Source: a virus. Taken from it: a DNA stretch of 46,749 bases. Position numbers and translations under genes: made by a program. How positions within the stretch are numbered: the first letter of the stretch is position 1; each line of letters opens with the position of its first letter. Positions 1 through 42,462 of this stretch are shown one piece after another. The notes below the pieces were generated by a model. That model saw nothing but the letters and a program-made list of their open reading frames with translations, had not been told where the DNA came from and did no database searches. Where the stretch lies: the IMG/VR virus record IMGVR_UViG_3300009168_000023, positions 1 to 46,749 of that record. One strand, given 5' to 3'.

Positions 1-119
1 ACGAGCGCGCACAGCGCGCCTTCCGCTCCATGTGCCACCTCGCCCACTGGCTCGACGACCACACGGTCGCCGACTACACCACGCTCACCCTCACAGGAGG
101 CATCGCATTCACGCCATGA
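1..119 (+). CDS. 3' fragment of the PD-(D/E)XK exonuclease gene (duplicate of right end)
   Basis: This is the duplicated tail of the gene complete at 45900-46745, ending at the TGA at 117-119. It is present only because the contig ends overlap. It should be counted once with the full gene and not read as a broken copy. Confidence 0.9.
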   Translation, partial: ERAQRAFRSMCHLAHWLDDHTVADYTTLTLTGGIAFTP

Positions 120-123
120 CCAC
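1..123. repeat. Terminal direct repeat, left copy
   Basis: These 123 bases match 46627-46749 exactly. They cover the last codons of the exonuclease gene, an AGGAGGCATC ribosome site (95-104) and the first codons of the Rad52-like gene. A gene junction cut this way and restored by joining the ends points to a circular assembly rather than a biological terminal repeat. A true short terminal redundancy cannot be excluded without reads. Confidence 0.95.
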
Positions 124-1944: not shown

Positions 1945-1947
1945 CCA

Positions 1948-20000: not shown

Positions 20001-23000
20001 CCGGGCTTGCGGCGCACCGCCACCTGCACGGTGCGGATGGACTCGGGTGGCGTGGCGGCATGGGAGGCGAACGCCACGTCGGGGTCGCCTACCACGATGA
20101 TGCCGCCGATGCGCTCGGGGTCGCCCTGCTGGAGGTTGTAGTTGTTCCAGTGGCCCTGCATGCGGTGAGCCGCGTTGTCCGCGCGCTGGATCATCTCCCA
20201 GTTCGAGCGGTGCTGGCCCGCTGCCACCCGCTTGTCCCACTCCCGGGCGAAGTAGCGCTGTGCCTTGCGCCACTCGGCGTCCGTGGCGTCCTTCCAGTGC
20301 GGGGCCCGGTAGTCGCCGTCGGGGTCGAGCGTGCGCAGCGCGTCGTAGGGCCGCTGGTAGAGGTGCTCCCACTCGGTGCTGATGAAGTGGTCCCACACCT
20401 GATCGCCCGTGAGTTCACCACGCGCAGCACCAGCGAACACCCGCTGGCGCTCCGCGATGAGGCGGGCATGGTCCTCGTCGTAGGTCAGCGAGATCGTGTT
20501 GTCGGGGCCGCCACCCAGCCCCTGCGCGTTCACCTCGCGGCGTGATCGCAAGCCCTGCTCGGTGACCGGGTCGGTCCGTGTGGTGGTATGCCACAGCCCG
20601 CCGCCACCCTGCCCGTCGTGGCCATACAGCGCCAGATCGTCGGGCAGTGCCCGGCGCATGTAGGAGTCCACGCCCGGCCAGCTCGCGACCTCCGACGGAA
20701 CCACATCGGTGACGAAGCCCTCGGTCACCGGCAGCATGCCGATGCGCTCGTGGGCGACCACGTTCTGCCGCAGCAGCGTCGCCACCTGCTCGTCGGACAG
20801 GAGCTGGGTGACGGTCTGGACCGCCGCCAGCATCTCCTCGTGGAGGTCGGTGGGACGGCTGCCCGCCTCCTGCACCGTGGTGGCAAGGGAGTTGAGCATG
20901 TCGTCGGTGTTGTCGGTGGCGAAGCCCATGGGGAAGGACTCGGTGCCGACTTCGAGGATGCCCTCGGCCATCTGCGGGACGCCATCGCCCAGCGCCGCCT
21001 GCTCCGCCGCCCGGATGGTCCGGTCGGCGATGAGCACCGGGGTCTCCGTGGGGCCACCGCCCAGCAGGCGGTAGGCCCGCTCGGTGACCGCAGCGTCCGC
21101 TGACCGCTGGGGCAGCCCGCCGTGCAGCCCGGCATACGTCCGGCGCGCCGTGCGGATGTCCTCGCGCATCGACGTCATGGTCTGGGCATACGCCGCACGC
21201 GGCAGCTCGCGCTGTGAGTCCACCCACACGGGCTTGCCCGCGAAGTGTGTGGCCATCCACTCGTCGAGGGTGATGCCCTTGGCGCGCGCCCCGGCCTGCG
21301 CCATGTTGCGCGCGAGGCGGGTCGAGAGGTCGATCTCGATGGCGCTGCGTCCGCCCTTGCGCATGCTCGACGCGAGCGAGTCGAACCACTCCTCGGGCGA
21401 CGAGAAGTTGGCGGTGCGCCACGCCCGGTCGGCGAACTCCGGGTCGAAGGTGCTGACCACCGGGTGGGCCCGGAACTGGGCCTCCGTGAGACCACCATCG
21501 CTGATGGCCTTGCGCAGCGCGATGGGGTCGCGATAGCCCAGCGTCTTGGCGAGTGGCTGCATCAGCACCTGATGGGGCTTGCCGATGGAGTTGGGGATGT
21601 AGCCGGTCGCGAGGAACGTCTGGTAGTGGGGGTCGTCCGCGTGGTGGACGCCCTTCTCGATCCAGTAGCGCACCGCGATCTCGCCCGCGTTCGTGGTGCC
21701 GTAGTGCTGCTCCATCTCGGCCCACTGGGCGGGCGCGGAGTTGAGCATGTAGCGCTTCCAGCGCTGGCCGCTGTCGGCCTTCACGTCACGGATGTAGTTG
21801 AGCATCTTGCGGTCCTTGACGTCACGGACCTTCATGCGCTTCTCGTTGGCGATGGCGATCTGGCCGCCGGGCCCGAAGGACGTCTCGGGGCGGTGGGTGC
21901 TCATCCAGCCCTGCGCCGCCGTGTAGGCGTACTCCGCCTGATCGCTGAACATCGTGCCCAGCTTCCAGCGGTCGAGCATCGCGAGGACGGCCCGGTCCTC
22001 GGCGGTCCACTGGAGCCCCGGCCTGACGCCCCGGATGATGTTGAAGAAATAGGGCTCCAGCCACTCCTGCATCTGGAAGATCGGGTTGGCCGTGAAGCGC
22101 ATCATCGGGTAGAGCTTCTCGGAGACCACGCCGACCCAGTTGCCCATGCCCGCACTGCGGGTCTTCATCTTCCCGGTGAGCTTGACCGAGAGGCCCACGG
22201 TGGCCATCTCGCCCTCGAACGCCTGTGCGGTCAAGAGTGCGAGTCCGTCGTCGCCCAGTCGCTGGCGCAGGTTGGGCGAGAGCCCCTCGGCGACGCCATC
22301 GACGATGCCCCGGAACTCGTCCATGGACAGGCCGCGCGGCTGGATGTTGCGCTCACTGGCGGTCTTGCGGACCGCCTCGAACAGGTTGATGGCCTCACGC
22401 CGACCGAGGTTGTGGACCTCGGTCGCGCGCCGGATGAAGCGTGAGCGCGCTTGGAACAGCAGCTTCTCGCCCCGGATGGGGCTGAACAGTCGGTTACGCT
22501 GGGTGTCCCAGTTGGTGGGCACGAACGCGGGGGCGCTCTCGGCGGTCGCCTCGACCCATGGGTTCACACCCACGAGGCGACCCGTAGCGTCGGTGGACAC
22601 ACGCCACTGGTCCTTGGCCGCCGGAGCCACCGCGATCCGGTAGGCGAACTGCTCGCCGCCATTGACCCGGCGGTTCTCGTCGATGAACGACTTGAGGCTG
22701 TCGCCCAGCGTGTCGTAGTCCACCACCGTGGGGAACGACGAGACCCCGTCCTCGCCGCCACTGATGTTGTCGCGCAGCCAGACCGCGAGCCGGTCGAGCA
22801 GCACGGCGTCCTCGATGAGCCGCCCGTCCTCGTCGTACATGCGCTCGAAGTTCTGGTGGAGCACGTCGAAGCGGTTGATGAACTCACGCGCCCGGTTGGC
22901 GGCGTCGGCGGCCCCCGACTCCACGATGCCCAGCAGCTCCTTGGCATCGTCGAGCGACATCTCCCGTGCGCCCAAGAGGGTGTAGCGGTGGACGAGGTCG

Positions 23001-25015
23001 CGGAGTGCGGTCAGGCGGGCCACCTCCACTTGGTCGCCCGCTGCCGCAGCAGCCTCGATCTTGGACCCGTAGGCGTTGGCGTCGAGCGTCCGCGACTCGA
23101 TCATGTCGTGGACCGAGCGCCCGTAGAACAGGCCCTCGGCGAGCGCGAGCCGCTTGTCGTTGCCGCCCTTGATGAACTTGGTGGCGGCCTCGCGGCTCAT
23201 GCCCGTGGAGGCCACCAGCCGCTCGATGGCGATGCCCTCCTGCTCCTCGCGGAAGACCGTCCGGGCGCGTGCCGCCTCCTCGGGGGTCAGGTGGGAGGTG
23301 TCGAGGACGTAGTCGGGCATGGCCCGCGCCGCCTCACGCTTGGACTCGTTGACGAGCACGTCGGGGGCCATGAGGTTGACCTCACGGATGCGTGCGTTGG
23401 GCGTCGCATCGGCCATGTTCTCGGGCAACCCGCCGCGCGCCTTGATCTGCTTGACCATCGAGTTGCGGTGGACGAGCGACATCTCGCTGTTGGCCATCCA
23501 CGTGCCGAGGCTCTGGATGAAGCGCGCCTGTGGCACGCCGAGGGCCTTGGCCAGCGCTCGCACGTTGCCGTAGCCATACGCGTCGAGCGCGCCCCGGGCG
23601 TGGGCGTCGGAGCGGAGTGCGCCCACCATGTCCGCCGCGCGGTCGGTGCCGAACACCCGGAAGGGCTCGTTGAGCACACGTGCCACCGAGCCCGTCGCCC
23701 GGACGATGGGCTCCATCCGCACCACGGCGCGCTGTCGCCGGGTGAGGGTCCCCTCCGCGTACTGCAACGCGTCGTCCATGAGCGCCGGGTCGATCTCGCG
23801 GATGCCGTCGCGGACCCACTCGTTGAACACACCGGCCCGGCCCCGGGGCGGGTTCAGTGGGTCGGTCGCCGCCTTGGCCAGCGCGGCAGCCTGCTCGGAC
23901 GCCGCTTCGAGTGGGGTCAAGGGGGACTGGGTCCTGATGTCGTTGGTCGTGCGTGCGAGTGCCTTGGCGGTCGCCGCCGCGTGGGCCTCGGGCGCTACCT
24001 GCGCGACACGCGCGTTGGCACGCGCCGTGCGCAGCGCGAGCGACCCGCGCTCCATGGCCCCGAGGGCGGCCCCGGTGCCGAAGGAGCCCACGATGATGGG
24101 GTCGGAGACCATGGACAGGAAGAAGTTGGCGAAGGCGTCGTTCGTGAAGGCGTAGCCGAGCTGGGTGATCTCGTCGAGGAACTGGTCGTGCGTGAGGTCA
24201 CCGCTCAAGCGCCGCAGGCGCACCTCCTCCAAGGGCTGGGGGAGCGAGTTGGCAGGCGCGTTGAGGATGGTGTCCTCGACGTTGCGCAGACCCGTGCCCG
24301 CGTACGTCCGCGCGATGACCTGCTGGGGCATGCCCAGCACGCCCAGCGCCCGTTCGAGGATATTGGCGTCGGGCATCATGAGCGGGCTGAACATGCGCGG
24401 CATGCCCAGCGCCTCCATGTACTCCTGCTCGTGCATCCGCAGGTACTGGCTCATGTAGCGCAGCGCCGTGTCCGGGTCGTCGAGCGCGAGCTGCTTGATC
24501 TGCTGGGTCTGTGCGGTCACGGGCAGGCGGTCGAACGCCTCCTGCACGTCGGGCACCCACGGCAGGGGCACGTGCCCGGCCAGTTCGAGGGGCACGTCGA
24601 GCACCTGCCCCACGCCATGCGCGAGGCCCACGAGCGGGTCCCGCGCGAAGCCCGGCAGCGCACCCGTGAACTGCTCCACGAGCCCGCCGATGATGCCCTC
24701 GGCGACACCCATCCGGGGGGCCAGCCCTTGGAAGGGCGTGTTCTGGGACAGCGGTGGCCCCACCATCGGCTGGCTGATGTTGGTCTTGCCCAGACCCCGG
24801 TAGGGCGTGCCCACACGCTGGGTCGGCGTGGGCCCATCGCCACCATCGGGTGACCCGCTCGCGTAGGGCCCTCGGACGGGTCGTCCGCTGAACAGGTCGT
24901 AGGTCGAGAGGGCGGGCCCGATGGTCGCCCCGTTCATGCCGTAGTTGCGGCCCATGGGCGTGATGGCCTCGAACTCCGACGCGTTGTGACGCGCGGAGAG
25001 ACCCCCCCTGTCCAC
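17069..25015 (-). CDS. 2648-residue polyvalent virion protein with ART-like and zincin domains
   Basis: Largest protein of the phage, likely packaged and injected. The N-terminal ~350 residues contain hydrophobic helices (FANFFLSMVSDPIIVGSFGTG). A long helical middle includes ANPIFQMQEWLEPYFF. Residues about 1470-1690 resemble an ADP-ribosyltransferase of the polyvalent type: LWHTTTR near 1475, ISLTYDEDHARLI near 1510, and ExE in GEHELRVW near 1680. Residues about 2325-2385 are a zincin-like metallopeptidase, HEFAHEF then EYLAREFEHYV. Start GTG 25015; ATGs further in are possible. Its place between portal and scaffold and the multi-enzyme make-up fit large polyvalent proteins; a tape-measure role is less likely. 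Confidence 0.65.
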   Translation of the reverse strand: MDRGGLSARHNASEFEAITPMGRNYGMNGATIGPALSTYDLFSGRPVRGPYASGSPDGGDGPTPTQRVGTPYRGLGKTNISQPMVGPPLSQNTPFQGLAPRMGVAEGIIGGLVEQFTGALPGFARDPLVGLAHGVGQVLDVPLELAGHVPLPWVPDVQEAFDRLPVTAQTQQIKQLALDDPDTALRYMSQYLRMHEQEYMEALGMPRMFSPLMMPDANILERALGVLGMPQQVIARTYAGTGLRNVEDTILNAPANSLPQPLEEVRLRRLSGDLTHDQFLDEITQLGYAFTNDAFANFFLSMVSDPIIVGSFGTGAALGAMERGSLALRTARANARVAQVAPEAHAAATAKALARTTNDIRTQSPLTPLEAASEQAAALAKAATDPLNPPRGRAGVFNEWVRDGIREIDPALMDDALQYAEGTLTRRQRAVVRMEPIVRATGSVARVLNEPFRVFGTDRAADMVGALRSDAHARGALDAYGYGNVRALAKALGVPQARFIQSLGTWMANSEMSLVHRNSMVKQIKARGGLPENMADATPNARIREVNLMAPDVLVNESKREAARAMPDYVLDTSHLTPEEAARARTVFREEQEGIAIERLVASTGMSREAATKFIKGGNDKRLALAEGLFYGRSVHDMIESRTLDANAYGSKIEAAAAAGDQVEVARLTALRDLVHRYTLLGAREMSLDDAKELLGIVESGAADAANRAREFINRFDVLHQNFERMYDEDGRLIEDAVLLDRLAVWLRDNISGGEDGVSSFPTVVDYDTLGDSLKSFIDENRRVNGGEQFAYRIAVAPAAKDQWRVSTDATGRLVGVNPWVEATAESAPAFVPTNWDTQRNRLFSPIRGEKLLFQARSRFIRRATEVHNLGRREAINLFEAVRKTASERNIQPRGLSMDEFRGIVDGVAEGLSPNLRQRLGDDGLALLTAQAFEGEMATVGLSVKLTGKMKTRSAGMGNWVGVVSEKLYPMMRFTANPIFQMQEWLEPYFFNIIRGVRPGLQWTAEDRAVLAMLDRWKLGTMFSDQAEYAYTAAQGWMSTHRPETSFGPGGQIAIANEKRMKVRDVKDRKMLNYIRDVKADSGQRWKRYMLNSAPAQWAEMEQHYGTTNAGEIAVRYWIEKGVHHADDPHYQTFLATGYIPNSIGKPHQVLMQPLAKTLGYRDPIALRKAISDGGLTEAQFRAHPVVSTFDPEFADRAWRTANFSSPEEWFDSLASSMRKGGRSAIEIDLSTRLARNMAQAGARAKGITLDEWMATHFAGKPVWVDSQRELPRAAYAQTMTSMREDIRTARRTYAGLHGGLPQRSADAAVTERAYRLLGGGPTETPVLIADRTIRAAEQAALGDGVPQMAEGILEVGTESFPMGFATDNTDDMLNSLATTVQEAGSRPTDLHEEMLAAVQTVTQLLSDEQVATLLRQNVVAHERIGMLPVTEGFVTDVVPSEVASWPGVDSYMRRALPDDLALYGHDGQGGGGLWHTTTRTDPVTEQGLRSRREVNAQGLGGGPDNTISLTYDEDHARLIAERQRVFAGAARGELTGDQVWDHFISTEWEHLYQRPYDALRTLDPDGDYRAPHWKDATDAEWRKAQRYFAREWDKRVAAGQHRSNWEMIQRADNAAHRMQGHWNNYNLQQGDPERIGGIIVVGDPDVAFASHAATPPESIRTVQVAVRRKPGRPIDWVQGEHELRVWPEDIQTLGDIEPSVSKVQGTMQDMRAEVAARMFAGYVRALDEDVAPGTAIQQMADVLHDISLKQKADPRGRTVVDHPLVAELVGDWEAGAPAAMSPFARDVMDQTFGAPKRSATMRRGTAPSFSVQAKAAAIDRHALHALGHWTPEYATAIARRMVKAGDATDIDDALGQLSARAGYDVRKPNPNQADPEVLYEWGVQKANALANAANAEDWGGRSDWTPGEMATLASTHARRIAEQHASEVEGGTVLRKALVTEVSPGFRRAPEWTNPLPPDELVSGPGSTLEGTLPQWDDLTDDQMRDVSRQVSLMAMDFVEQATGVRFVGSPIDIVMPRGGGAAAVSPLTGWSLMALTDEAADSAMDMIGATLQLDEVWGTKYTDALTADPSKGIHWALDLRLPSTATARHWDAFARYAAEAYPDGTRVLSARDTEGRQVVRIVWQPEEGVAQTTLDDFLAGMREAEAGIEDELHVGDWVNGLPDEFEWMRETILPVELDRHPVQVKMTTNRGADHPRVGSTFAHDERMARSLTRGGMTPEEAANDAIGRTYLDRLRARGDYGAEVAASVVGRWRDQAKSHIDDAYEQYAPSLAGPAAGRARLASLGGGARGETVQYQRNARGVRAALAYTDGARSTLYVLEHADPSSIVHEFAHEFARSLDESGKRALMTAYDATPTASGGRRRTSRQWGRQHEEYLAREFEHYVAGGAKTAPTPGLKAIFNAYGEWGRTNLEGGVRNVPQEVREVFDEWFRVADQSEPKATFDADEYRWMQALMQSFTMGEEQAHTRHYYKRGRSWTERSVNHPYLGMYPASYMWGKVLPAMIRFLVAKPFGVDAPFAGALMAKHAAFYAQLMIQTNPEMQDFIEKHPETIRMFQMMLPGTPWDIPVNMPAWARHAAEDAAQNRLRTEQGLAAQPTDFGKIIEDTVAYAFGGPRAIASPFNLMSEWNGANTPEPDDAANVWSQIGL

Positions 25016-28764: not shown

Positions 28765-28914
28765 TCAGAGGAGCGCGAGGATGACGAACACGGCACCCAG
28801 CGTGCAGACGCCCCACGCGCTGATGTCCTGCCCGTTGGAGCGCAGCGCATCGACCGCGCCGAGGATGATGGCAATCGCGCCGCCCACGATCATGACCAGT
28901 TCCTCGTTGCTCAC
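28765..28914 (-). CDS. 49-residue two-helix membrane protein
   Basis: Two predicted membrane helices (VMIVGGAIAIILGAVDAL and WGVCTLGAVFVILALL) joined by a polar loop. The GTG at 28914 overlaps the portal stop (GTGA). It resembles a small holin-like or head-vertex membrane protein. The phage already has a holin candidate by the endolysin, so this may act at entry or as a second lysis protein. Confidence 0.55.
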   Translation of the reverse strand: MSNEELVMIVGGAIAIILGAVDALRSNGQDISAWGVCTLGAVFVILALL

Positions 28915-30986
28915 AGCTCCTCCTCCTCGGGCACTGGCGCGCCGCCGATCTCGTTCTGGAACATGAGCCGGTTGCTCGCCTCACCCTCCTTGATCATGGT
29001 CTGGGCGAGCATGGGCTCCGCGCCCGCTGCCGCCGGGCCACCGGGGGTGGCCTCGGCACCCGGCATCACCTGTGCGCCCTCGCCCTGCATCGACTCATCA
29101 CCGACCGCGCCGCCCTGCTCCTGACCGAACGCGGCTGCCGCCTGCTCGGGGGACACGCCCTCCTCGCCCGGCATCGGCTGGCCCATCTGCTGGGCGGTGA
29201 TCTGGAGCTGCTGCATCGTGCTCATGAGGGCCGCCTGCACCTGCACGTCGGCGGGGAACAGCGAGGCGTCGGTGCGCTCACCCTTGACGATGGCGATCTC
29301 GGACTCGGGGTCCTCGACGCCCACCGCGTCCATGCCCCGCTCCAAGCTCCAGAGCTTGGCGTTCACGAGGTTGATGGCCATCGTGGCGGTCTCGAGATCG
29401 TCCCGTGGGGACAAGGACGGGTTGTCGGTGACCAACCGTCCGACCGACTCGAAGATGGGCTTCAAGGCGGTGTTCTTCTCGGCCCAGATGATGCCCGCCA
29501 GCTTCCAGATGTCCCTGCGCCAGCGGTACAGCAGGTCGCGCTTCATGCGCGAGCGGGTCTCGTAGTTGGCCACCAGCGCGTTGATGGCCTTGCTGGAACT
29601 CAGGACGTTGTTGGGGGCGAGCCCGCGCAGCAGGTCGTTGAGCCCACTCACGTCCTGTAGCTCGCGGTCGATGCGCGCGAGGTACTGCTCCGCTTGGAAC
29701 GAGGGCATCCATGGCTGGATGGCCTCGATCCTGTTGCCCGCACCGGGGCCGACCACCTTGTTGGCCTGCGGACGGAGTCCCGTGGGCACGATGTCGGGGG
29801 CTTCCGGGCCCACGAGCTGCCAATACTGTGCGTTCACGGTCTGGCTCATCATCTGGGCGTATTCGGAGAGCCGCTGCTCCTTCTCGCGGATGAGCTGCTC
29901 CACGTCGTACAGCTCGGAGCGCCCCGTGGGCAGGCCCGGCAGGTAGGTGTTGAACAGCGGGATGTAGGGGATGGCTCCCCGGTACTCGCCGTGCTCCTCG
30001 TCCATGACCTTGTGGTCGCCCACGAAGATGCAGTTGCGGGTGACCATCGTGGTGGGCTCACCCACCTCGATATCGTCCTCGTCCTTGGGCTCCCGGTACC
30101 AGTAGTCCCAGACCTCGACCATGGTCTGGGTGCTGTCCATGACCCCACCCGTGCGGTCGGTGCGCTGGGCGAGCGGGTCCGCGTGGGTGCCGTAGCCGCG
30201 CGTGGCCGGTGGCAGCACGGTGAGGTAGCGCTTGCCGTCCTTGCCCTCACGCCAGCCGCACTCAAGGCCCCAGTCCGCGAGCACCGCCTCGGGGGTCATG
30301 CGGTAGACGTACAGCGCCCAGTCCAGTCGGCGGTAGTCGGAACTGCCCCAGCCGAGGTACAGGTTGCGGGGCTGATCGACGATGGTGAAGCGGGGTGACT
30401 CGGCGTCCTCGTCCCACCACACCTTGGCGGCGGTCTTGCCGTACAGACCCTTGACCACACACGCCTGATGGGCCAGCTCCTCGAAGGCGACGTCGTCCTT
30501 CCACGCGAAGTAGACCCGCTCCATGGCCGCCGCCATCATCCGGCCCTGCTCGTCGGACACCAAGGGCAGGATGTTCTCGATGGGCGGCACGCTCTGGAGC
30601 GCCGCCGGGACGTCCACGTACACGGGGTAGCTGTTGATGCTGATGTGGACGCGCCCGGGGATGCGCGCACTGGGGTGCTCGGGCCAGTTGTCCGCCCCGC
30701 CGCCGTTGGCGATGGTGGTCGGGTAGTACAGCTCGTCCCAGCGGTCGCACATCTGGGCGAACGCCTGCTGCTCCGGTTCGAGGGTCGCCTTGCGCGCCGC
30801 GATCTGGCGGTAGAAGTAGGCGTCGTCCTCGCTCGACCCGTCGCGCTTGAGGTCGTGGGGGCGTCGGTTCTGGCGCGTCTTGGGTGTCTGATGGACACGC
30901 GTATCGCTGAGTGCCGAGCTGGGATAGGGGACGACCGCCACGGGCGCGAGTGTGGGCCCAACGCGATGTGATCGCAAGGCCCGCAT
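28911..30986 (-). CDS. Portal protein
   Basis: About 690 residues. The core has portal-like features: an early LYYPTTIANGGG...WPEHPSARIPGRVHISINSYPVYVDV section, VKGLYGKTAAKVWWDE, VYRMTPEAVLADWG, and a long helical stem with ELYDVEQLIREKEQRLSEYAQMM, IDRELQDVSGLNDLLRG and IWKLAGIIWAEK. The C-terminus is Gln/Gly/Glu-rich and disordered. It forms the ring through which TerL, encoded next door, pumps DNA. The start is unclear: TTG 30992, ATG 30986 or a later GTG all lack a good ribosome site. Confidence 0.8.
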   Translation of the reverse strand: MRALRSHRVGPTLAPVAVVPYPSSALSDTRVHQTPKTRQNRRPHDLKRDGSSEDDAYFYRQIAARKATLEPEQQAFAQMCDRWDELYYPTTIANGGGADNWPEHPSARIPGRVHISINSYPVYVDVPAALQSVPPIENILPLVSDEQGRMMAAAMERVYFAWKDDVAFEELAHQACVVKGLYGKTAAKVWWDEDAESPRFTIVDQPRNLYLGWGSSDYRRLDWALYVYRMTPEAVLADWGLECGWREGKDGKRYLTVLPPATRGYGTHADPLAQRTDRTGGVMDSTQTMVEVWDYWYREPKDEDDIEVGEPTTMVTRNCIFVGDHKVMDEEHGEYRGAIPYIPLFNTYLPGLPTGRSELYDVEQLIREKEQRLSEYAQMMSQTVNAQYWQLVGPEAPDIVPTGLRPQANKVVGPGAGNRIEAIQPWMPSFQAEQYLARIDRELQDVSGLNDLLRGLAPNNVLSSSKAINALVANYETRSRMKRDLLYRWRRDIWKLAGIIWAEKNTALKPIFESVGRLVTDNPSLSPRDDLETATMAINLVNAKLWSLERGMDAVGVEDPESEIAIVKGERTDASLFPADVQVQAALMSTMQQLQITAQQMGQPMPGEEGVSPEQAAAAFGQEQGGAVGDESMQGEGAQVMPGAEATPGGPAAAGAEPMLAQTMIKEGEASNRLMFQNEIGGAPVPEEEEL

Positions 30987-31008
30987 ATCCAAGGACGCTT
31001 GTACTCAC

Positions 31009-31034: not shown

Positions 31035-32729
31035 CTACGACTCGACGAGCCAGTCCTCGACGGGCTTGGGCGGCCAGCCTTCGAGCGTGGAGGTGGGCAG
31101 CCGACCGCCGAGGAACTCGCGGTCGGTGATGACCCGGTTCTGGCGGCCCACGGGGTTGCTCGACTGGTCGAAAAACGTGAACGGCGAGGCCGGTGCGGCC
31201 ACGACCTGCTGGTAGCGGACCATGACCCGTGCCGCCACCGCGAGCGCCATGACCGCGTCGGTCTTGAGCTTGCGGTCGGCGAGTCGGTAGGCCAGCAACT
31301 GGGAGCGCAGCTCCAGCCAGATGCCCGTGCGCGGGAAGCGCAGCTTGCCCTGCTCGATGAGGCCCTTGAGGTCGGTCAGGATGGTCAGCTTGCGCTGGCC
31401 GCGACCCCCGAACTCGACCGCCCGCAGGCCCGTGAGGTCACGCAGCGTGTCGTGGAAGACCTTGCCCCCGAAGCCCGTGGTGTCAAGGCCCGTGTCGCAG
31501 CGCGCACTGCCCTCGTCGTAGGCCAGATGGGTGTCCCGCACGAGGCCCGACACGGCGGTCACGGTCTGCTTGCCCTGCTTGCGCTGGGCGAGCACCCCGA
31601 TGGCGGGCTGGCCCGCCACGATCTTGAGCACGACCGACCATGTCGAGTCGTGCGTGAGGGCAGGATCGACCCCCTGCACGTACCGACCACGCGGCTCGGG
31701 CTCCTGTCGGTGGGGCATGCCGTCCACGAAGCAGGCATCGACCGCCCGGGCGTCGAAGAACCCACGCTCGCCCTCGATGAAGTAGCCGTCGATGTTCTGG
31801 GGCACCAGATGTGGCTGCATGCCCGCGACCATCCGGTCGAACAGCTCGTCGCTGATGCCATAGCCCACGTTGTCGCGGGTGCTCATGCGCATGCTGATGC
31901 GGTCGGGGTCGCGCTGGGGGTCGTCGGGGTCGCCCTTGATCCACTGGTCGTGCCACTGGTTGAAGCCCTCGGACGGTGTGGACACCATCACGAGCTGGCC
32001 ACCCGTACTCAGGCGACGAAGGTGGAGCACCTCCTCCACGATGAACTCCAACGCAGGCTCGAAGCCACACTCGTCGAACGTGATGAGGTGCATGTCGCGC
32101 CCCAACTGCGACACCGCCTTCTCGCCCGAGGTACGGAAGGCGATGGTGCCACCACCGAGCACCTCATGCCACGAGAAGTCGAGCGCTCCGCGCTGGCCCG
32201 TGATGCCCCAGACGCCCTTGCCCATGGCTTCGGTGAGGGGGCAGCCGTGGCTCTGGGCGTAGTGGGTGCCCGCCATGATGGCCCGGATGTCCTCGGCCAC
32301 GATCTCGCAGACATCGACGCTGATGCCGAAGTGGTAGGCCGCGAAGCGGCGCTGGGCGTGGGCGTACAGCGCCCGCTCATCACCTTCGGCGGGTGGCGGG
32401 GTGCCGTACTTGTAGAGCGTGCCGTGGAGCAGCAGCACATCCAAGAGCAGGGTCTTGCCCGCACGGTTGCCCGACGACAGGGCGCAGGTCAGGTAGCGCG
32501 GTCGGTGGCCTGTGGCGTCACGCAGCAGCACCGACTCCGCGAAGGCGACCTGTCCCGGGTGGAGGGTGATGCCAAGGACGCCCTTGGCGAACAGCTCGAT
32601 GTCGTAGCGCCCACGGCGCAGCGCGTCGGCGAGGTCAGGTGGTGGTGTCCGTGGTGCGGTAGCGGTTCTGGGGACTGGGGACCGGGATACGATCAGGACG
32701 TCGTCCTTCGATGAGTCGCTCGACGGCAC
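31035..32729 (-). CDS. terL: Terminase large subunit
   Basis: ATP-driven packaging motor and nuclease. The ATPase has Walker A SGNRAGKT at about residues 86-93 and Walker B LITFDE around residue 218. A STPSEGFNQWHDQW motif follows. The RNase-H-like nuclease half shows GVDPALTHDSTW (about 350), DTTGFGG and KTDAVMALAVA. The start GTG 32729 is chosen because GGGAG lies five bases upstream; GTG 32777 is the longer option. Either start overlaps the TerS gene by about 95-143 bases. Confidence 0.88.
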   Translation of the reverse strand: MPSSDSSKDDVLIVSRSPVPRTATAPRTPPPDLADALRRGRYDIELFAKGVLGITLHPGQVAFAESVLLRDATGHRPRYLTCALSSGNRAGKTLLLDVLLLHGTLYKYGTPPPAEGDERALYAHAQRRFAAYHFGISVDVCEIVAEDIRAIMAGTHYAQSHGCPLTEAMGKGVWGITGQRGALDFSWHEVLGGGTIAFRTSGEKAVSQLGRDMHLITFDECGFEPALEFIVEEVLHLRRLSTGGQLVMVSTPSEGFNQWHDQWIKGDPDDPQRDPDRISMRMSTRDNVGYGISDELFDRMVAGMQPHLVPQNIDGYFIEGERGFFDARAVDACFVDGMPHRQEPEPRGRYVQGVDPALTHDSTWSVVLKIVAGQPAIGVLAQRKQGKQTVTAVSGLVRDTHLAYDEGSARCDTGLDTTGFGGKVFHDTLRDLTGLRAVEFGGRGQRKLTILTDLKGLIEQGKLRFPRTGIWLELRSQLLAYRLADRKLKTDAVMALAVAARVMVRYQQVVAAPASPFTFFDQSSNPVGRQNRVITDREFLGGRLPTSTLEGWPPKPVEDWLVES

Positions 32730-33261
32730 GAGCGCTCCCGTCGATGACACGCGCAGGCGTGTGCTCACCAGAGCCACTCAGCAAGCGCGCCAGTCCCATG
32801 GCCAGCTCCCGGTCCTGTGCCCGCTCCTCGCGCCGGTCGATCATCTGCTGGGCGATGAGCCCCTGCTGGACGGTGGGATGGAGGTCCCCATCCTCGACCC
32901 GACGGCGCACGTCGTCGCGCACCAGTTCCGCGAGGTCGGGCTTGGCCGCGTAGCCCCCCGCGAGCTGGGCCATGAGGTCCCGCTCGGTGGCCGGGAGCCG
33001 CGCGATCCAGTGCTCCCTGTGCTTGCTGATGGTCTCGGACTTGGTGGGCCAGTCGAGACCACGCATCTCGCGCTCGATGAGCGTCGGGTACTTGCCCGAG
33101 GCCAGTGCGCGGTCGATGGCCATGCGTCGGTCCTGCTCCCCGACGCATATCCCGCACTCGCCCTTGCCGGGCCGGTCCTTGGGCTCTCTGGGGAGGGGTG
33201 CGGTCACGGATGGGTCGGTCCTCGTGTGTGATGCCGAGGAGGGGCGACAGGAGGGAGGCAT
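32635..33261 (-). CDS. Terminase small subunit (putative)
   Basis: About 208 residues. After a disordered start there is a small Cys pair (GECGICVGEQ), then a helix-turn-helix-like region (SGKYPTLIEREMRGLDWPTKSETISKHREHW) suited to binding packaging sites. A long helical middle (ELVRDDVRRRVEDG...IDRREERAQDREL) and an Arg-rich tail follow. The gene lies immediately upstream of and overlaps terL, and borders the large structured non-coding region, a likely packaging-recognition neighbourhood. ATG 33261 has GGAG four bases upstream; GTG 33264 and GTG 33207 are alternatives. Confidence 0.7.
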   Translation of the reverse strand: MPPSCRPSSASHTRTDPSVTAPLPREPKDRPGKGECGICVGEQDRRMAIDRALASGKYPTLIEREMRGLDWPTKSETISKHREHWIARLPATERDLMAQLAGGYAAKPDLAELVRDDVRRRVEDGDLHPTVQQGLIAQQMIDRREERAQDRELAMGLARLLSGSGEHTPARVIDGSARAVERLIEGRRPDRIPVPSPQNRYRTTDTTT

Positions 33262-33401
33262 CACACTCCGTCTGCCACGACCTCCTCGGTCGGTGCGAGC
33301 GTAGCTCAGTCGGTCAAGGGACTACGTCGTCCGTCCTAGACGCTCTCTCTTGGCCTCACATCGCCCCCCGCTCCTCCCTGCACCCTCCTCACCCCCTCGA
33401 A

Positions 33402-33437
33402 GGGTCTGGGACCCCGGATACAGGGGGTCCCAGACCC
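33402..33437. terminator. 14-bp perfect hairpin near TerS, candidate terminator
   Basis: Arms 33402-33415 and 33424-33437 are perfectly complementary with an 8-base loop. It is followed by C-runs and TTT on the plus strand but no long T-run. It might block rightward or leftward read-through between the divergent operons or be part of a packaging site. Confidence 0.45.
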
Positions 33438-33546
33438 CCCTTTCCCACACCCCGGGTCCTACCATCCCCCCCTCCCCCCCATCCCCCTCGAACCTATGGG
33501 GGGTGGGGACCGTCCCTCAACGAAGTTGAGGGACTGGCCCCCCTAT

Positions 33547-33571
33547 GGGTAGGGATAGGGGGAGGGGAGGG
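33547..33571 (+). other. G-quadruplex-forming motif
   Basis: Five G-runs of 3-5 bases separated by 1-3 bases (GGG, GGG, GGGGG, GGGG, GGG) fulfil the standard four-run quadruplex rule on the plus strand. A C-rich block at 33466-33487 gives long G-runs on the minus strand. Hairpins flank both. Confidence 0.6.
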
Positions 33572-33895
33572 TAGGACCACCATAGGTGGTCCACCCTCTG
33601 GGGACATGACATCCCTCTCCCCTATGAGGGGGACGGGGTCGGGTAGGTGGGACGTAGTCCCACCGTACCCTCCCCCTTCCCTCCGCGCGCGTGCGCGCGT
33701 GAGGGGGAGAAGGGTAGGGTCGGTGGCCCCCCATAGGGGGCCACCTCCCCTACTCAGATGGGAGGGCCCCCTTCGCCTCGGTCGTCGGCGGTGGTCGGGG
33801 ACCCCCACCTTCGGTGGGGACGGGCTCCCTCGATCCGCCCTGTCCCCTCCGGGGACCGCCTCCTCCCTCGGCTCGTCCCCCATTGTGCTTGCACA

Positions 33896-33907
33896 TGTCA
33901 AGGACAG
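33896..33907 (-). promoter_or_regulatory. TTGACA-containing 12-mer upstream of the terminase operon
   Basis: The minus-strand 12-mer TGTCCTTGACAT is identical to the one before the scaffold gene (17063-17052). TTGACA is a perfect -35, but no good -10 is seen 16-18 bases on, so it may be a regulator-binding site or a promoter with a non-standard -10. Confidence 0.35.
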
Positions 33908-33912
33908 GGTGT

Positions 33913-33951
33913 GTCCACAGCTAGGCAGTCTCTGACTGCCGTAGCTTGGAC
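33913..33951 (+). ncRNA. Long stem-loop, possible structured RNA or leader
   Basis: The core GGCAGTC (33924-33930), loop TCT, GACTGCC (33934-33940) extends outward. AGCTA (33919-33923) pairs with TAGCT (33942-33946) with one bulge, and GTCC (33913-33916) pairs with GGAC (33948-33951). It is the longest irregular stem in the region, about 220 bases before the ATPase start, and may be a leader element. Confidence 0.4.
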
Positions 33952-34156
33952 CCACCTATCTGTCCTCCGTGCGTGCGTCGTGAGCACACACACGCCGTCG
34001 GCGCGGTCTTCGCGCGCAAGCTCCCTGCGAGACACACACACAGACCGTTGCTCACCTTCGGTGAGCCGATGGCCGACCCGATGTGGTGGAATGGAAGCGG
34101 CGAACGACCGCCGTTCTCTACCGGCCCCAAAGGGGCTGGCGGCATGGTCAGTCGTC

Positions 34157-34166
34157 AGGAGGCATC
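34157..34166 (+). promoter_or_regulatory. Extended ribosome binding motif AGGAGGCATC setting the ATPase start
   Basis: This 10-mer lies seven bases before ATG 34174 and decides between that start and 76 in-frame upstream codons. The same 10-mer precedes starts at 116, 35811, 38278 and 38769, and its GGAGGCATC core precedes 4048. Confidence 0.75.
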
Positions 34167-34173
34167 CGTTTCC

Positions 34174-35778
34174 ATGGGAAACGTCGCAACCACACCGGTC
34201 CTCTCCGGCAGAGCCGGAGACAGTGGGGTCACGCCATCGAAGATGGCGTCACTCGTGAGCCGTGGCTCTGCCACGGAGAAGTGGGGTCACGTCGCCAAGA
34301 CCCCTGCCACATCGGAGATGTGGACGGTCGAGTTGTTCGGCGATGACGGTTCCACCGTCCATGCCAAGGGTGCGTTCAACGTCTCCGACGTTGACGACCG
34401 ATGGTCGGCGGCGACGGTCGCCGTCCATGGTGATGCCAAAGGCATCAGCGTCGAGCGCTTGAACAAGATCATGCGCCTGCTGACCGACTCCGTCGGATCA
34501 GCACCCCGCATCGATCTGTACTGGAGGACCGGCAAGGCCGCTGTCCGATGCCCCGGCTACGCCGGGAGGACGAACGTCCCGGTGCTGGTCCGTGGCACCA
34601 CCCCCCTTGGGGGTGGCGACTGGTCATGGGACCTCGCCACCTTCGGTGGCTCCATCATCAAGCCCGGCAAGCCCCGCAAGGCACAGACGAAGTCTGTGAA
34701 GGCACCGGTCACCCCGGTCATCCCTGCACCGACTCCGTCGGTGGCTCCCAGCCCGGCACCTTCGGTGCCCTCACCGAAGCGGGCGGAGCGCAAGGCCGCT
34801 CGACGTGCTGCCGCTGCGGAGCAGCGACAGGTCGCAAGCACACCGGTCGAGCCGAAGGCTCGTGAGGTCACGGCGTCGGGGTCTACGACCCCGGTGATCT
34901 TCGCCGATCCGGCGACCATCAAGCCCGGCTTCGCCGTCCACCACGACGCCACGATGCTGGCCGACCTCAAGCGCGAAGCGAAGCTTCATGCGTCAGGTCG
35001 GAGGACCGTCGTGCTGATCTCCGGTCCCACAGGGACCGGGAAGACGCTGACGGCGAAGCATGTCGCGGCAGACGAAGGTCTGCCGTTCCTCAAGGTGGAC
35101 GCCGTTGCCATGGCAACGTTCTTCGACTGGGTCGGCGGCGTTGGCCTCACCTCCGGTGAGGGTGTCCACACCGAGTTCCAGCCGAGCCTCCTACTGGAGG
35201 CTATCCGGGCTGACGGACCGTTCGGTGGCATCCGAAGGATGGTCCTCATCGACGAGGTCAACCGGGTCACCCAAGGCTCTAGCCTTGGGGCGATCATCCC
35301 CATGACGGATGGTCAGGGGACGGTGTACGTACCGGATGCTCGACAGAGCATCCCGGTCGATCCCGCCGTCATGTGGGTCATGACGGCCAACATCGGCGCT
35401 GCTTACAGCAGCGGCACGGTGCAGGTCGATCCGGCGATCATGAACCGGGTCACATCTCACCTTGAGGTGAGATACCCGGCGGCTGTCGCAGAGCGACAGA
35501 TGCTGGTCGAGCAGGGTGGCTGCACGCAGGGCATCGCAGATGCCCTGATCAAGGCTGCGGCTCAGGTCCGGGCTGTCTACGACAGCGGTGCCATCGCCAC
35601 ACCGCCTGTCTCTACGAGACAGTTGATCGAGGCTGCGGCGAAGGTCGCCGTCGGGTGTGATCCCGTCCACGCTTGTGAGTTGGCGTTCGCTCACAACTAC
35701 TCCGCCGAAGGCGGCAACGACTCCGAACGGGCCAAGGTCATGGTGGCGGTCCGCGCCGTCCTGACCGGGGTTCGATGA
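34174..35778 (+). CDS. MoxR/CobS-type AAA ATPase
   Basis: 534 residues. An N-terminal domain of about 150 residues (WTVELFGDDG...GGDWSWDLATFGG), a Pro/Ala/Lys linker (about 165-235), then one AAA+ module. It has Walker A GPTGTGKT near 284, Walker B MVLIDEVNR near 360, sensor-1 WVMTANIG near 405 and NRVTSHLEVRYP. This matches MoxR/CobS ATPases, which remodel partners through a VWA protein; the next gene encodes one. The start is fixed by AGGAGGCATC. The coding DNA contains about 25 perfect short hairpins, including one over Walker A and one over the stop codon. Substrate unknown. Confidence 0.78.
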   Translation: MGNVATTPVLSGRAGDSGVTPSKMASLVSRGSATEKWGHVAKTPATSEMWTVELFGDDGSTVHAKGAFNVSDVDDRWSAATVAVHGDAKGISVERLNKIMRLLTDSVGSAPRIDLYWRTGKAAVRCPGYAGRTNVPVLVRGTTPLGGGDWSWDLATFGGSIIKPGKPRKAQTKSVKAPVTPVIPAPTPSVAPSPAPSVPSPKRAERKAARRAAAAEQRQVASTPVEPKAREVTASGSTTPVIFADPATIKPGFAVHHDATMLADLKREAKLHASGRRTVVLISGPTGTGKTLTAKHVAADEGLPFLKVDAVAMATFFDWVGGVGLTSGEGVHTEFQPSLLLEAIRADGPFGGIRRMVLIDEVNRVTQGSSLGAIIPMTDGQGTVYVPDARQSIPVDPAVMWVMTANIGAAYSSGTVQVDPAIMNRVTSHLEVRYPAAVAERQMLVEQGGCTQGIADALIKAAAQVRAVYDSGAIATPPVSTRQLIEAAAKVAVGCDPVHACELAFAHNYSAEGGNDSERAKVMVAVRAVLTGVR

Positions 35779-35788
35779 ACCCCGTCAG
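35761..35788 (+). promoter_or_regulatory. Hairpin spanning the ATPase stop codon
   Basis: CGGGGTTC (35766-35773), loop GAT, GAACCCCG (35777-35784), extended by CTGA/TCAG outside with one bulged base. The TGA stop (35776-35778) lies at loop and stem, and the next gene's ribosome motif begins ten bases later at 35798. It could couple or insulate translation of the two genes. Confidence 0.55.
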
Positions 35789-35810
35789 CACACACACAGG
35801 AGGCATCGTC

Positions 35811-38021
35811 GTGTCATCACTCATCCCCACCTTCGGTGGGGACCCCATCCCGTGGGTCACGGACCTTTGGTCCGGTGCTCTCGACGGTCGGAAGCCCGAC
35901 GTCGAGCGGTCCCGTGCTGCCTTGGCAGCACTCAACAGCATCGTCGCCGGTCTGTCGGATGACGACCGAACGTACTCCGTACGTTTCAGCGGCGATGCCC
36001 TCACGACGAACACCCACATCGCCGCCAAGGTCGTGACCGTAGGTCACGGTCCGTTGGGTGATCCCAACCTGACCTCCGGTCAGATCGCGGCGATCATGAC
36101 CGGGCTCGCCTTCCACGAGATCGGCCACATCCGGCACACCCGCAAGGTCGAGCACGTCCTTGACTCCTACGGAGCCAAGGGGAGCACGCCATGGAAGCGG
36201 GCACAGCGTGTGCTCAACCTCGCCGACGACGTTCGTTCCGAACGTCTCAACTGTGTCGAGTTCCCGGGTCTCGCAGAGACCCTGCCGATCACCCTTCGGT
36301 GGATCGGTGAGCGCACCATCAAGCCCGGGATGCAAGCATCCCGGATCAGCACGTCCTTCGGTGTCGGCATCATGGCGGTCCGCTACCCCGACTTCGTCGA
36401 ATGGACGGGTCGCGAGGCGGCTCGCGACTGGTGGCAGGCATGGGCGGAGCGTGCAGCGGTCGCCCACACCATCCCGGCACTCCGTGCCGTGATGGACGAG
36501 GCGCTCGATCACATCGCCGAAGGCGATGACCTCAAGGACGAGCCCACCGAAGGTGGCGATGACGCCACCGAAGGTGAGGATGAGTCGGAGCCCGGCGATG
36601 ACGCCACCGAAGGTGGCGACGGTCAGGGTGACGACGCCGATGGCGAGTCCGATGACGCCACCGAAGGTGGCGAGGGTGACTCCGACGGCGAGGGTGAGTC
36701 CGACGATGACGCCACCGAAGGTGGCGAGCAGGGTGAGGGCTCCGATGACGCCGACGGCGACGGCGAGGGTGATGCCACCGAAGGTGGCGACAGCGCCGAC
36801 GGTGAGCCCACCGAAGGTGATGACGATCCGTGGGCCGATGAGTCCGACGGTGATGCCACCGACGGTGAGCCCGGCGGCTTCAACCCGGGCGAGGCACCGG
36901 AACAGGGTTCCGGCCAGCGTGATGGCGATGAGCCCACCGACGGCGAGGATGCCGAAGGCATCGACGCGGAGTCGATGGTGCAGGACTGCCCCACCGATGC
37001 CGCCACCGATGGCACCGAAGGTGACGTGCAGAACGGCATCGACGCTGCCGTGACCATGTCACGGGGCGCGTCGGGCCACCGCTCCTACACCACCACGCTC
37101 ACGGACTACCGTGGTCGCACCACGACCTACACGCAGGAGGTCAAGCGCGGCATCCCGGCACGGCGTGGTGGCAAGGCCACCACGGGTGGCAGTGAGGGCA
37201 TGAGCTTCCTCCCACCTACGGTGGGTCAGCCCATGAACCCCACGGCCAGTCGGACCCAGCGCCCGACCCTTCGGGTCGGCGTGAGTCAGGCGCTGGCCGC
37301 TGCTATCGCAGCGTCCAAGCATGGTGATCCCCTGCCGACACCGGGTCAGCGTTCGGGTCGGCTCGACCGACAGCGCTTGCCACGGGTCGCCGGAGGCGAC
37401 TGCCGTGTGTTCACGAACGTCGTGACGCCGGGACCCACGCGTATCCGGGCCATCGTGCTGCTCGACGCATCAGGATCGATGGACGCCGGGTCACAAGTGA
37501 CCCGTGACCACACGGGTCGGGTGTCGGGGCACTTCGGCGCGACGCGTGCCACGGTGGCCGCACAGGTCGGCATGGACCTCGCCGGGGCATTCGACCGGAT
37601 GCGCAACGTGACCGCCGCCATCTACGCCCACAACGTGAATGACGGAGTCATGGTCCACGCGCTGTGGCAGACCGGTGAGCCCACCGACTATGTCGGTGAC
37701 TACGCCGATCTCGCCCTCGACTCGAACGCGGACGACCTCGCGATCAGGTACGCGACCGACGACATGCTCATGACCCGCCGTCCCGGCGAGGCATGCGTGA
37801 TCGTGGTCGTGAGTGATGGCATGCCGCCGTCCACGGCGCTGGTCAAGGCTGCGGTCGAGGATGCCCGTAAGCGGGGCATCGCGGTCGTGAGCGTGGCCAT
37901 CGCTCCCGAAGCGAACGAGGCGCAGACCGACATGTACGGTCACGAGGACGTCGTCCCGTGGGAGCGTGAGCCCATGGTGATGGCGCGCAAGATCGCTCAG
38001 GCGATCGGGCGGCGCGTCTGA
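35811..38021 (+). CDS. CobT-like protein: zincin-type domain, acidic linker, VWA domain
   Basis: 736 residues. The N-terminal domain has HEIGH at 102-106 and an acidic residue in DDVRSER near 144, matching the metallopeptidase-like part of CobT/DUF2201-type proteins. Residues about 235-405 are an Asp/Glu/Gly linker with repeated ATEGG units. The C-terminal VWA domain has the metal site LLDASGSMD (D552, S554, S556) and ends VMARKIAQAIGRRV. With the ATPase before it, this forms a MoxR-VWA or CobS-CobT type pair, usually metal insertion or protein remodelling; no cobalamin genes are nearby. Start GTG 35811 is preferred over ATG 35775 because AGGAGGCATC lies at 35798-35807. About 19 hairpins occur in the coding DNA. 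Confidence 0.75.
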   Translation: MSSLIPTFGGDPIPWVTDLWSGALDGRKPDVERSRAALAALNSIVAGLSDDDRTYSVRFSGDALTTNTHIAAKVVTVGHGPLGDPNLTSGQIAAIMTGLAFHEIGHIRHTRKVEHVLDSYGAKGSTPWKRAQRVLNLADDVRSERLNCVEFPGLAETLPITLRWIGERTIKPGMQASRISTSFGVGIMAVRYPDFVEWTGREAARDWWQAWAERAAVAHTIPALRAVMDEALDHIAEGDDLKDEPTEGGDDATEGEDESEPGDDATEGGDGQGDDADGESDDATEGGEGDSDGEGESDDDATEGGEQGEGSDDADGDGEGDATEGGDSADGEPTEGDDDPWADESDGDATDGEPGGFNPGEAPEQGSGQRDGDEPTDGEDAEGIDAESMVQDCPTDAATDGTEGDVQNGIDAAVTMSRGASGHRSYTTTLTDYRGRTTTYTQEVKRGIPARRGGKATTGGSEGMSFLPPTVGQPMNPTASRTQRPTLRVGVSQALAAAIAASKHGDPLPTPGQRSGRLDRQRLPRVAGGDCRVFTNVVTPGPTRIRAIVLLDASGSMDAGSQVTRDHTGRVSGHFGATRATVAAQVGMDLAGAFDRMRNVTAAIYAHNVNDGVMVHALWQTGEPTDYVGDYADLALDSNADDLAIRYATDDMLMTRRPGEACVIVVVSDGMPPSTALVKAAVEDARKRGIAVVSVAIAPEANEAQTDMYGHEDVVPWEREPMVMARKIAQAIGRRV
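36512..37022 (+). repeat. Acidic-linker repeats encoded by a hairpin unit
   Basis: The 9-mer ACCGAAGGT occurs at 36546, 36567, 36606, 36660, 36714, 36777, 36810 and 37014, usually inside GCCACC-GAA-GGTGGC (Ala-Thr-Glu-Gly-Gly), a perfect stem. Spacing is irregular, about 21-200 bases, with Asp/Glu/Ser-rich filler. The protein repeat and the DNA hairpin are the same object here. Confidence 0.8.
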
Positions 38022-38094
38022 CACGCGTCGCATGAGGCGCGGCCCGGAGCTGCTACACAGCTCGGGCTCACGCGCACCGACAGCTCCAGCAGAT

Positions 38095-38122
38095 GTGAGC
38101 CCACCGGCAACGGTGGGCTCAC
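38095..38122 (+). terminator. Strong hairpin after the VWA gene
   Basis: GTGAGCCCACCG and CGGTGGGCTCAC pair perfectly over 12 bp around a GCAA loop, a stable GNRA tetraloop. A smaller stem GAGCTG/CAGCTC (38047-38063) precedes it. The tail downstream has CGTTTCGGGG rather than a T-run, which is common for high-G+C terminators. It probably separates the VWA unit from the next operon. Confidence 0.6.
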
Positions 38123-41879: not shown

Positions 41880-41971
41880 ACGATCCGATCATCAACGACC
41901 GGGTGATGCTGGTGTTCCTCATCGGGTGCAGCCTGCTCGCCTTCGTGTCGTGGGTCCTTGACCCGGCATGA
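41876..41971 (+). CDS. 31-residue membrane peptide
   Basis: One membrane helix (VMLVFLIGCSLLAFVSWVL). Start and stop overlap the neighbours by ATGA, which supports translation. Function unknown. Confidence 0.45.
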   Translation: MNDPIINDRVMLVFLIGCSLLAFVSWVLDPA

Positions 41972-42462
41972 GTGACGTCATCGACTTCGAGGTCACGGGG
42001 TTGCCCATCCCGCAGGGTTCGCTGCGGGCCATGGTCAACCCCAAGACCCACAAGGCGGTGGTCCCACAGGCCGACCAGCGCCTGCTCACCTACCGCGCTG
42101 ACCTGCGCACGGGTGGGCAGCGGGCGATGCACGAGCGGTGGCTGCCGCTCATGGCGTGGGCCGTGAGCATGGACGTCACGTTCGTGCTGCCACGCCCCGC
42201 GCTCCACTACCTCCCCGTCAACAGGCGTCGCGCGGAGCCCGAGCTTCGCGCCGACGCCCCCGTGTTCCCGATGGGCACACCCGACATCGACAAGTTGTGT
42301 CGGTCGGTGCTCGATGCCCTCACCGGGATCGTCTTCGCGGATGACGCGCAGGTCGTGCGTCTCCACGCATCCAAGGTCTACGCCGACGAACCCGTGTTCG
42401 CCGGACTCACGCGCCTACGCATCACAGGAGGCAACGCACCGACATGGCCACCCCGACCCTAG
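41968..42462 (+). CDS. RusA-like Holliday junction resolvase
   Basis: Endonuclease resolving branched DNA in phage recombination and packaging. 164 residues with the RusA pattern: GLPIPQGSLRAM near the N-terminus, then PDIDKLCRSVLDALTG with D106 and D108, and FADDAQVVRLHASK with D125 and D126, the acidic metal-binding residues. It belongs to the recombination set with the exonuclease and annealing protein. Overlaps the following gene by 19 bases. Confidence 0.85.
   Translation: MSDVIDFEVTGLPIPQGSLRAMVNPKTHKAVVPQADQRLLTYRADLRTGGQRAMHERWLPLMAWAVSMDVTFVLPRPALHYLPVNRRRAEPELRADAPVFPMGTPDIDKLCRSVLDALTGIVFADDAQVVRLHASKVYADEPVFAGLTRLRITGGNAPTWPPRP

Follow-up and report, generated by a model that had tools for sequence, protein, structure and literature searches.

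Why should two adjacent protein-coding genes of a virus, together with the noncoding DNA in front of them, be crowded with short perfect hairpins? This question is raised by the IMG/VR record IMGVR_UViG_3300009168_000023, of which positions 1 to 46,749, referred to here as the window, were analysed. An initial annotation made from the letters alone had drawn attention to positions 33402 to 38122 and had offered several meanings side by side, among them mRNA protection or translation control, packaging or recombination sites, and invasion by a tiny palindromic element. The reading preferred here, to which an even chance is given, is that selection maintains this island as an array of small hairpin-forming DNA elements at the terminase-side end of the genome.

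The Hairpin Island

A recount along the window yielded 82 stems of at least 6 bp with loops of 0–4 nucleotides between 33.4 and 38.1 kb, that is 17.4 per kb, as compared to about 98 such stems, or 2.4 per kb, in the other 41.7 kb. This count over the whole genome, which had been set as a test beforehand, bears out the island, and the abundance of stems noticed by eye stands, while the figure given at that time (about 53 plus one) was too low. The edges hold as well, the first stem lying at 33423 and the final one ending at 38122. The non-overlapping hairpins of at least 6 bp number 79 in the island (33402..38122, not assigned to a strand), are spaced by 60 bp on average and cover 1384 of its 4720 bases. 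As had been reported, loops are mostly of 3 nucleotides, this being the commonest class with 59 stems, and 52 of these 59 are closed by a C-G pair. When a strict element was defined as C-[AG][AGT]A-G or its reverse complement with a stem of at least 6 bp, 41 of the 43 strict elements of the genome were found in the island. A search for helical phasing of the hairpin spacings gave no signal at 10.5 bp, and tRNA and Rfam searches gave no matches.

The array starts 160 bp upstream of the start of the probable terminase small subunit gene (32635..33264, minus strand), which was assigned by position only and has no family match. The genes of the terminase large subunit (31035..32777) and of the portal protein (28911..30992) are likewise on the minus strand, and transcription of the terminase is directed away from the array. 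A noncoding leader between the terminase operon and the AAA gene (33402..34173, no strand assigned) carries seven strict hairpins, among them those at 33512–33534, 33574–33592, 33646–33664, and 33803–33819. The hairpin CGTTTCC-ATG-GGAAACG (34167..34183, plus strand) has the probable start codon of the AAA gene as its loop. This gene, which encodes a MoxR/CbbQ-type AAA+ ATPase (34174..35778, plus strand), starts after AGGAGGCATC and contains 18 strict hairpins, and an 8-bp hairpin, CCGGTCCC-ACA-GGGACCGG (35021..35039, plus strand), falls within its Walker A motif (GPTGTGKT). The partner gene with HExxH and VWA (35811..38021, plus strand, GTG start) contains 16 strict hairpins. Four hairpins with GAA loops (36602..36788, plus strand) fall in the stretch encoding the acidic linker of ATEGG repeats in the VWA protein; three of them are CGCCACCGAAGGTGGCG, and one is shorter. 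The 12-bp terminator-like stem announced for the end of the island is present past the VWA stop (38095..38122, no strand assigned); it has a GCAA loop and is not a strict element.

Stems form easily in GC-rich DNA, and chance, composition or an assembly artefact therefore had to be considered. With loops of 0–5 nucleotides the AAA gene contains 36 stems as compared to a mean of 5.2 and a maximum of 12 in 100 synonymous shuffles, and the VWA gene 37 as compared to a mean of 7.0 and a maximum of 12. Eleven further genes of the phage have stem counts inside their own synonymous-shuffle range. The short-range folding energy of the AAA and VWA genes is 7–21 standard deviations below synonymous shuffles, with control genes at −2.7 to +0.2; folding with DNA parameters gave z values of about −10 to −13 on either strand, and RNA folding z values of −13 and −10. 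The proposed comparisons with codon-shuffled genes and with the folding of the shuffled set thus came out in favour of the claim that a requirement for nucleic acid structure, beyond codon and amino acid use, has shaped the coding sequence. An assembly artefact is ruled out by a second assembly (IMGVR_UViG_3300027743_000484), in which the sequence recurs as far as position 37636 and is 99.96% identical. Together with the seven other viruses described below, these results leave chance, composition or artefact with a practically negligible probability.

Arrays in Other Viruses

After the loop rule had been derived in this phage, IMG/VR was probed with one exact hairpin, GCCACCGAAGGTGGC, and at least 118 loci matched. 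Among the matches listed, 107 loci had no more than two strict elements per 1.5 kb, and eight loci, namely, a second strain of this phage and seven other viruses, had at least nine; with a GAA hairpin as probe, this sample is biased to GAA-rich arrays. The whole contigs of the seven other viruses contain exactly one array each. Their GC content ranges from 0.47 to 0.66, their gene content differs, and two of them (G002 and G003) are haloarchaeal. With this phage they make up the set of eight array viruses, G000–G007, with 12–57 strict elements per array.

The array is limited neither to this phage nor to AAA/VWA genes. The two genes crossed by it here are a phage porphyrin-type MoxR AAA (phrog_249) and its VWA partner. 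MoxR AAA genes of phrog_249, the family to which the AAA gene of G000 belongs, lie within the arrays of G005 and G006, too. In G001 and G005 the array is followed by genes for an exonuclease and a DnaB-type helicase. A gene common to all arrays was not found. No such array occurs at 79 other viral MoxR AAA loci, so the array is not a property of the MoxR AAA/VWA cassette. Relatives found by protein in IMG/VR and INPHARED were only fragments or hairpin-free parts, the array being seen among them in the second strain alone. L015, a relative by its portal (46%), has primase/helicase-type genes without hairpins at the place of the array, and no array was found in the stretches examined of Streptomyces Beephvirinae, Gordonia phage Kudefre, Mycobacterium phages Silverleaf and Penelope2018, and Tunturi_4.

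Loop and Stem Rule

In the eight viruses the fraction of C-NNN-G sites which bear a stem of at least 6 bp depends strongly on the loop. It was 108 of 310 for GAA, 35 of 146 for GGA, 29 of 80 for GTA, 15 of 42 for AAA, 14 of 57 for AGA, and 11 of 29 for ATA, and for these six favoured loops or their complements amounts to 24–38%. The loops GCA (5 of 40, 12.5%) and ACA (2 of 59, 3%) are disfavoured, and ACC (0 of 153), GCC (0 of 102), and GAC (1 of 157) are close to zero. The length of the stems is restricted as well. In the arrays it declines as by chance up to 3 bp, peaks at 6–8 bp and falls sharply beyond 8 bp, resulting in a bimodal distribution with 84, 80, and 39 stems at 6, 7, and 8 bp followed by 7, 7, and 1. 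This second peak was found in every one of the array viruses, and outside the islands stem lengths fall geometrically. The element is a palindrome of 15–19 nucleotides with a 6–8 bp stem, a closing C-G pair and a triloop of the type [A/G][A/G/T]A or its complement. The stem sequences in the hairpin list of the island are diverse and mostly unrelated to each other. The chemical reading of the loop rule draws in part on general knowledge of DNA triloops. By analogy with published hairpins, the favoured triloops appear to be the set for which a sheared purine-A pair can close the loop in DNA (PMC4496689, PMC7205883).

Overlay on Coding Sequence

Within the genes the loops are found 29 times in codon phase 0, 13 times in phase 2, and seven times in phase 1, as had been noticed initially, and the two preferred phases are those in which wobble positions oppose fixed ones. 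Loop codons are rare codons in 40% of cases as compared to 7% outside, and the favoured loop 5-mers are in excess (78 versus 51). The hairpins changed the amino acids of the proteins, too. This follows for the AAA protein from its palindromic potential, 37 hairpins of 7 bp being reachable by synonymous codons as compared to about 14 for a shuffled residue order; for the terminase, portal, and capsid genes this potential is close to that of the shuffled order. Conserved AAA residues fall in hairpins as often as other residues.

The elements are short, alike in size and numerous, as might be expected of tiny palindromic elements which had been inserted into genes. The AAA domain with its 15 hairpins, however, exceeds CbbQ in length by no more than about 16 residues, and when the AAA gene L210 of another array was compared with the hairpin-free AAA gene of Gordonia phage Kudefre the AAA domain showed no gaps at the hairpins, with equal identity inside (40%) and outside (38%) them. 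In addition, inserted palindromic elements of the Rickettsia type are insertions whose copies share sequence, whereas the hairpins here leave no gaps against homologues and their stems are varied. These alignments show the hairpins to be overlays on coding sequence rather than insertions, and the invasion suggested initially is hardly credible.

Position at the Probable Genome End

In G000–G004, G006, and G007 the array lies 5′ of the terminase/portal operon and enters the divergent early genes, transcription of the operon being directed away from the array; in G005 a tail-fibre gene is located between terminase and array. Summed over six genomes, the 10 kb which extend from the terS start to the terminase side contained one strict element, and on the early side successive 500-bp intervals contained 8, 31, 40, 38, 31, 18, 11, 6, 5, and 4, with terS in G000, G004, and G006 assigned by position. 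The arrays thus begin abruptly at the terminase side and thin out within the divergent early operon over a distance of about 5 kb. In the halovirus HF2, which shares 60% portal identity with G003, terminal repeats of 306 bp are located exactly between terS and the early arm (PMC8707807). The junction of terminase and early genes in HF2-like haloviruses is the physical end of the virion genome, and in the array viruses other than G002 and G003, the relatives of HF2, the position of the terminase suggests a genome end at the array. Five cultured relatives of HF2 have no strict array, other stems being only mildly enriched in their corresponding terminal region, and the array is therefore dispensable in the HF2 group. 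Packaging or recombination sites come nearest among the meanings offered initially, every array being on the terminase side of the early region. A GC-skew test for the origin was suggestive, though not decisive, in G003, G004, G005, and G006.

DNA or mRNA

Selection on mRNA should tolerate G-U pairs on the sense strand. Stems with one mismatch, small in number, contained G.T as often as A.C when pooled (7 versus 7), and at the next outer pair the counts were 51 and 57. Loop orientations are balanced on the sense strand of this phage, with 22 of the T-H-Y kind and 20 complements; in the haloviruses GAA loops are favoured on the sense strand, for which their glutamate-rich proteins could be the cause. 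As wobble pairing typical of RNA has left no signature and neither strand is preferred in this phage, the structure probably acts as DNA and not as mRNA. A leader and early mRNA selected for hairpins, be it for stability, translation control or protection from RNases, would be in line with the RNA folding of both genes far below synonymous shuffles and with arrays which follow the early transcript and fade along its length. The counts of mismatches and loop orientations, and a loop rule which suits the sheared pairs of DNA, speak against this meaning, put forward in the initial annotation, and make it very improbable.

Evolution of the Hairpins

The array genes of G003 (L129) and G002 (L169) are 44% identical and share the centres of 11 hairpins. 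In seven of these the inner pairs are unchanged and in four there are six compensated inner pairs, as in CTCACC-GAA-GGTGAG versus GTCACC-GAA-GGTGAC, where the amino acids change from L..E to V..D. The remaining hairpins are private to one virus, many having turned over. Over all hairpin pairs of L129 and L169 covariation did not exceed that of slid controls, since many hairpins occur in one gene only and the informative ones are those at shared positions; it follows that the density persists although individual sites come and go. The compensatory changes which homologues had been expected to reveal thus exist in this one array pair, from two other viruses, for shared hairpins, and many others turn over instead. 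Further homologues of the halovirus array gene were found neither in viral nor in genome contigs. Regarding an origin of palindromes by single events, one near-identical strain was compared: the two strains of this phage show four differences in 24 kb, three of them inside the array, and one of these is an indel in the stem of the start-codon hairpin, where the second strain lacks base 34168.

Possible Function and Competing Explanations

What has been observed is that the element obeys a rule, forms one cluster in each genome, has a defined position and is superimposed on coding sequence; what the array does can be put forward as a mechanism. The hairpins may act within the duplex, from which they would be extruded as cruciforms, or in single strands exposed at the genome end. 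When the end of an entering or replicating genome is unwound or resected, the strand would fold into a row of very stable mini-hairpins, which could slow single-strand exonucleases and, as long as the end is neither joined nor copied, keep strands from annealing or recombinases from loading. GNA telomere loops withstand single-strand nucleases (PMC7205883), and C(GNA)G hairpins are extruded at physiological supercoiling (PMC4496689). The step of end protection by itself is a guess of low probability, and cruciforms formed under supercoiling at divergent promoters would be an alternative.

The strongest competing explanation, which is unlikely but carries appreciable weight, is a hotspot of fold-back or template-switch mutation at an exposed genome end or origin. 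Folded nascent or resected strands would be extended by polymerase to perfect palindromes, purifying selection would spare the tolerable ones, and the hairpins would have no function. Template switching is known to create and repair hairpins and prefers DNA-stable loops (PMC8794818), and fold-back mutation at ends could yield many of the patterns described here, such as the excess palindromic potential of the proteins, that is, their altered amino acids, the decrease of hairpin density with distance from the terminase side, and the turnover between L129 and L169. The loops, however, are not templated and still show an excess of favoured 5-mers and rare codons; variable copy tracts would not be expected to have an optimum at 6–8 bp with a sharp cut-off above; and both loop orientations are equal in this phage, although a given 3′ end exposes one strand. 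The loop excess, the rare loop codons, the length optimum and the missing strand bias make an origin by mutation alone less likely, and the occurrence of conserved AAA residues in hairpins as often as others is a further point against it. The narrow stem length and strict loop rule resemble recognition, and the hairpins could therefore be binding or start sites at which a virion or host enzyme (RNA polymerase, primase, replication or packaging protein) reads a C-RNA-G triloop in extruded DNA. This idea is prompted by the promoters of the virion RNA polymerase of phage N4, which are short DNA hairpins with a 3-nucleotide loop and require a C-G closing pair together with 5′ G and 3′ A in the loop (PMC4496689), and by the location of the arrays at the early region. 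It is nevertheless rather improbable, given dozens of intragenic sites in both orientations, unlike promoters, diverse stem sequences and no gene found to be common to all arrays; a large virion protein of 2648 amino acids yielded no PHROG, Pfam or PDB match to an N4-type polymerase in sequence-level searches.

Comparison with Known Systems

The early promoters of N4 share with the arrays the short stem, the 3-nucleotide loop with 5′ G and 3′ A, the closing C-G pair, and the early region of a tailed phage (PMC4496689). N4 has three early promoters, with the GNA hairpin on the template strand only and conserved stem bases, whereas the arrays have 12–57 strict elements, lie inside genes in both orientations (20 versus 22 in this phage), have varied stems, accept A as the first loop base and disfavour GCA. 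The telomere palindromes of Streptomyces comprise about 180 nucleotides and belong to terminal-protein replication. They resemble the arrays as a row of palindromes with sheared-pair GNA triloops, and they are located at the genome end and are nuclease-resistant (PMC7205883); the arrays differ in being kilobases long, overlapping genes and occurring in tailed viruses with a terminase. Mitochondrial palindromes of Nematomorpha are likewise perfect inverted repeats on coding sequence, both arms of which encode conserved residues, but with arms of 43 bp on average and wide spacers, across mitochondrial genes and with no loop rule or fixed position (PMC6649704). Template-switch (quasi-palindrome) hairpins have perfect stems, stable DNA loops and a one-step origin; in the events of the study cited, however, 4-nucleotide loops were found enriched and 3-nucleotide loops depleted, with no arrays and no fixed genome position (PMC8794818). 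The loop chemistry (N4 promoters, Streptomyces telomeres) and coding palindromes (Nematomorpha mitochondria) are thus already known. For a standardised hairpin array which runs through genes on the terminase side in several unrelated tailed viruses no precedent was found in the literature covered, which lay mostly outside subscription journals.

The chances are about equal that the arrays constitute an undescribed class of viral elements, namely, arrays of standardised mini-hairpins (6–8 bp, C-[AG][AGT]A-G loop) which occur once per genome beside the terminus in bacterial and archaeal tailed viruses unrelated to each other, overlap early genes adapted even in their amino acids, and serve end protection, packaging or entry. 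Protein genes are here written around DNA secondary structure, recurring at one defined place in viruses of two domains. This suggests that tailed viruses handle a DNA end, entry or packaging via cruciform-type DNA in a mode undescribed so far, and hairpin-sensing host defences would bear on the meaning of the array. If the origin were mutational instead, the arrays would represent extreme natural fold-back mutagenesis at virus genome ends, and sequence alone could then locate these ends.

Sequences in and around the hairpin array

The two genes of the triloop hairpin array, encoding a MoxR/CbbQ-type AAA+ ATPase (34174–35778) and its HExxH and VWA domain partner (35811–38021), look like long-time residents of this phage, because the ribosome-site motif AGGAGGCATC is found before them as well as before other rightward genes, its copies lying at positions 34157, 35798, 38261, 38753, 46721, and 95 of the window. 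Short (AC)n runs occur immediately upstream of both array genes (positions 33986, 34032, and 35790) and nowhere else in the window. When 24 kb were compared with the near-identical contig 3300027743_000484, three of the four differences fell inside the array (positions 34168, 34585, and 34896). The start-codon hairpin (34167–34183) carries one of them, an indel in its stem; the remaining two are synonymous and lie outside stems.

This phage also encodes a Rad52-type annealing protein (2–985), an AAA_25 helicase-like ATPase (1948–3246), a SpoIID-like protein (3388–3996), and a RusA resolvase (41968–42462). A virion-type protein of 2648 amino acids (17069–25015, minus strand), which yielded no match in PHROG, Pfam or PDB, is possibly an ejection or multi-enzyme protein.

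Other viruses

Short stems with other loops are mildly over-represented in the terminal early region of cultured HF2-like haloviruses (L243, positions 1–3000; terminal regions of L245, L247, L248, and L249). Two additional IMG/VR loci matching one exact hairpin, L175 and L214, contain 4 to 5 strict elements per 1.5 kb and may represent weak or decaying arrays.
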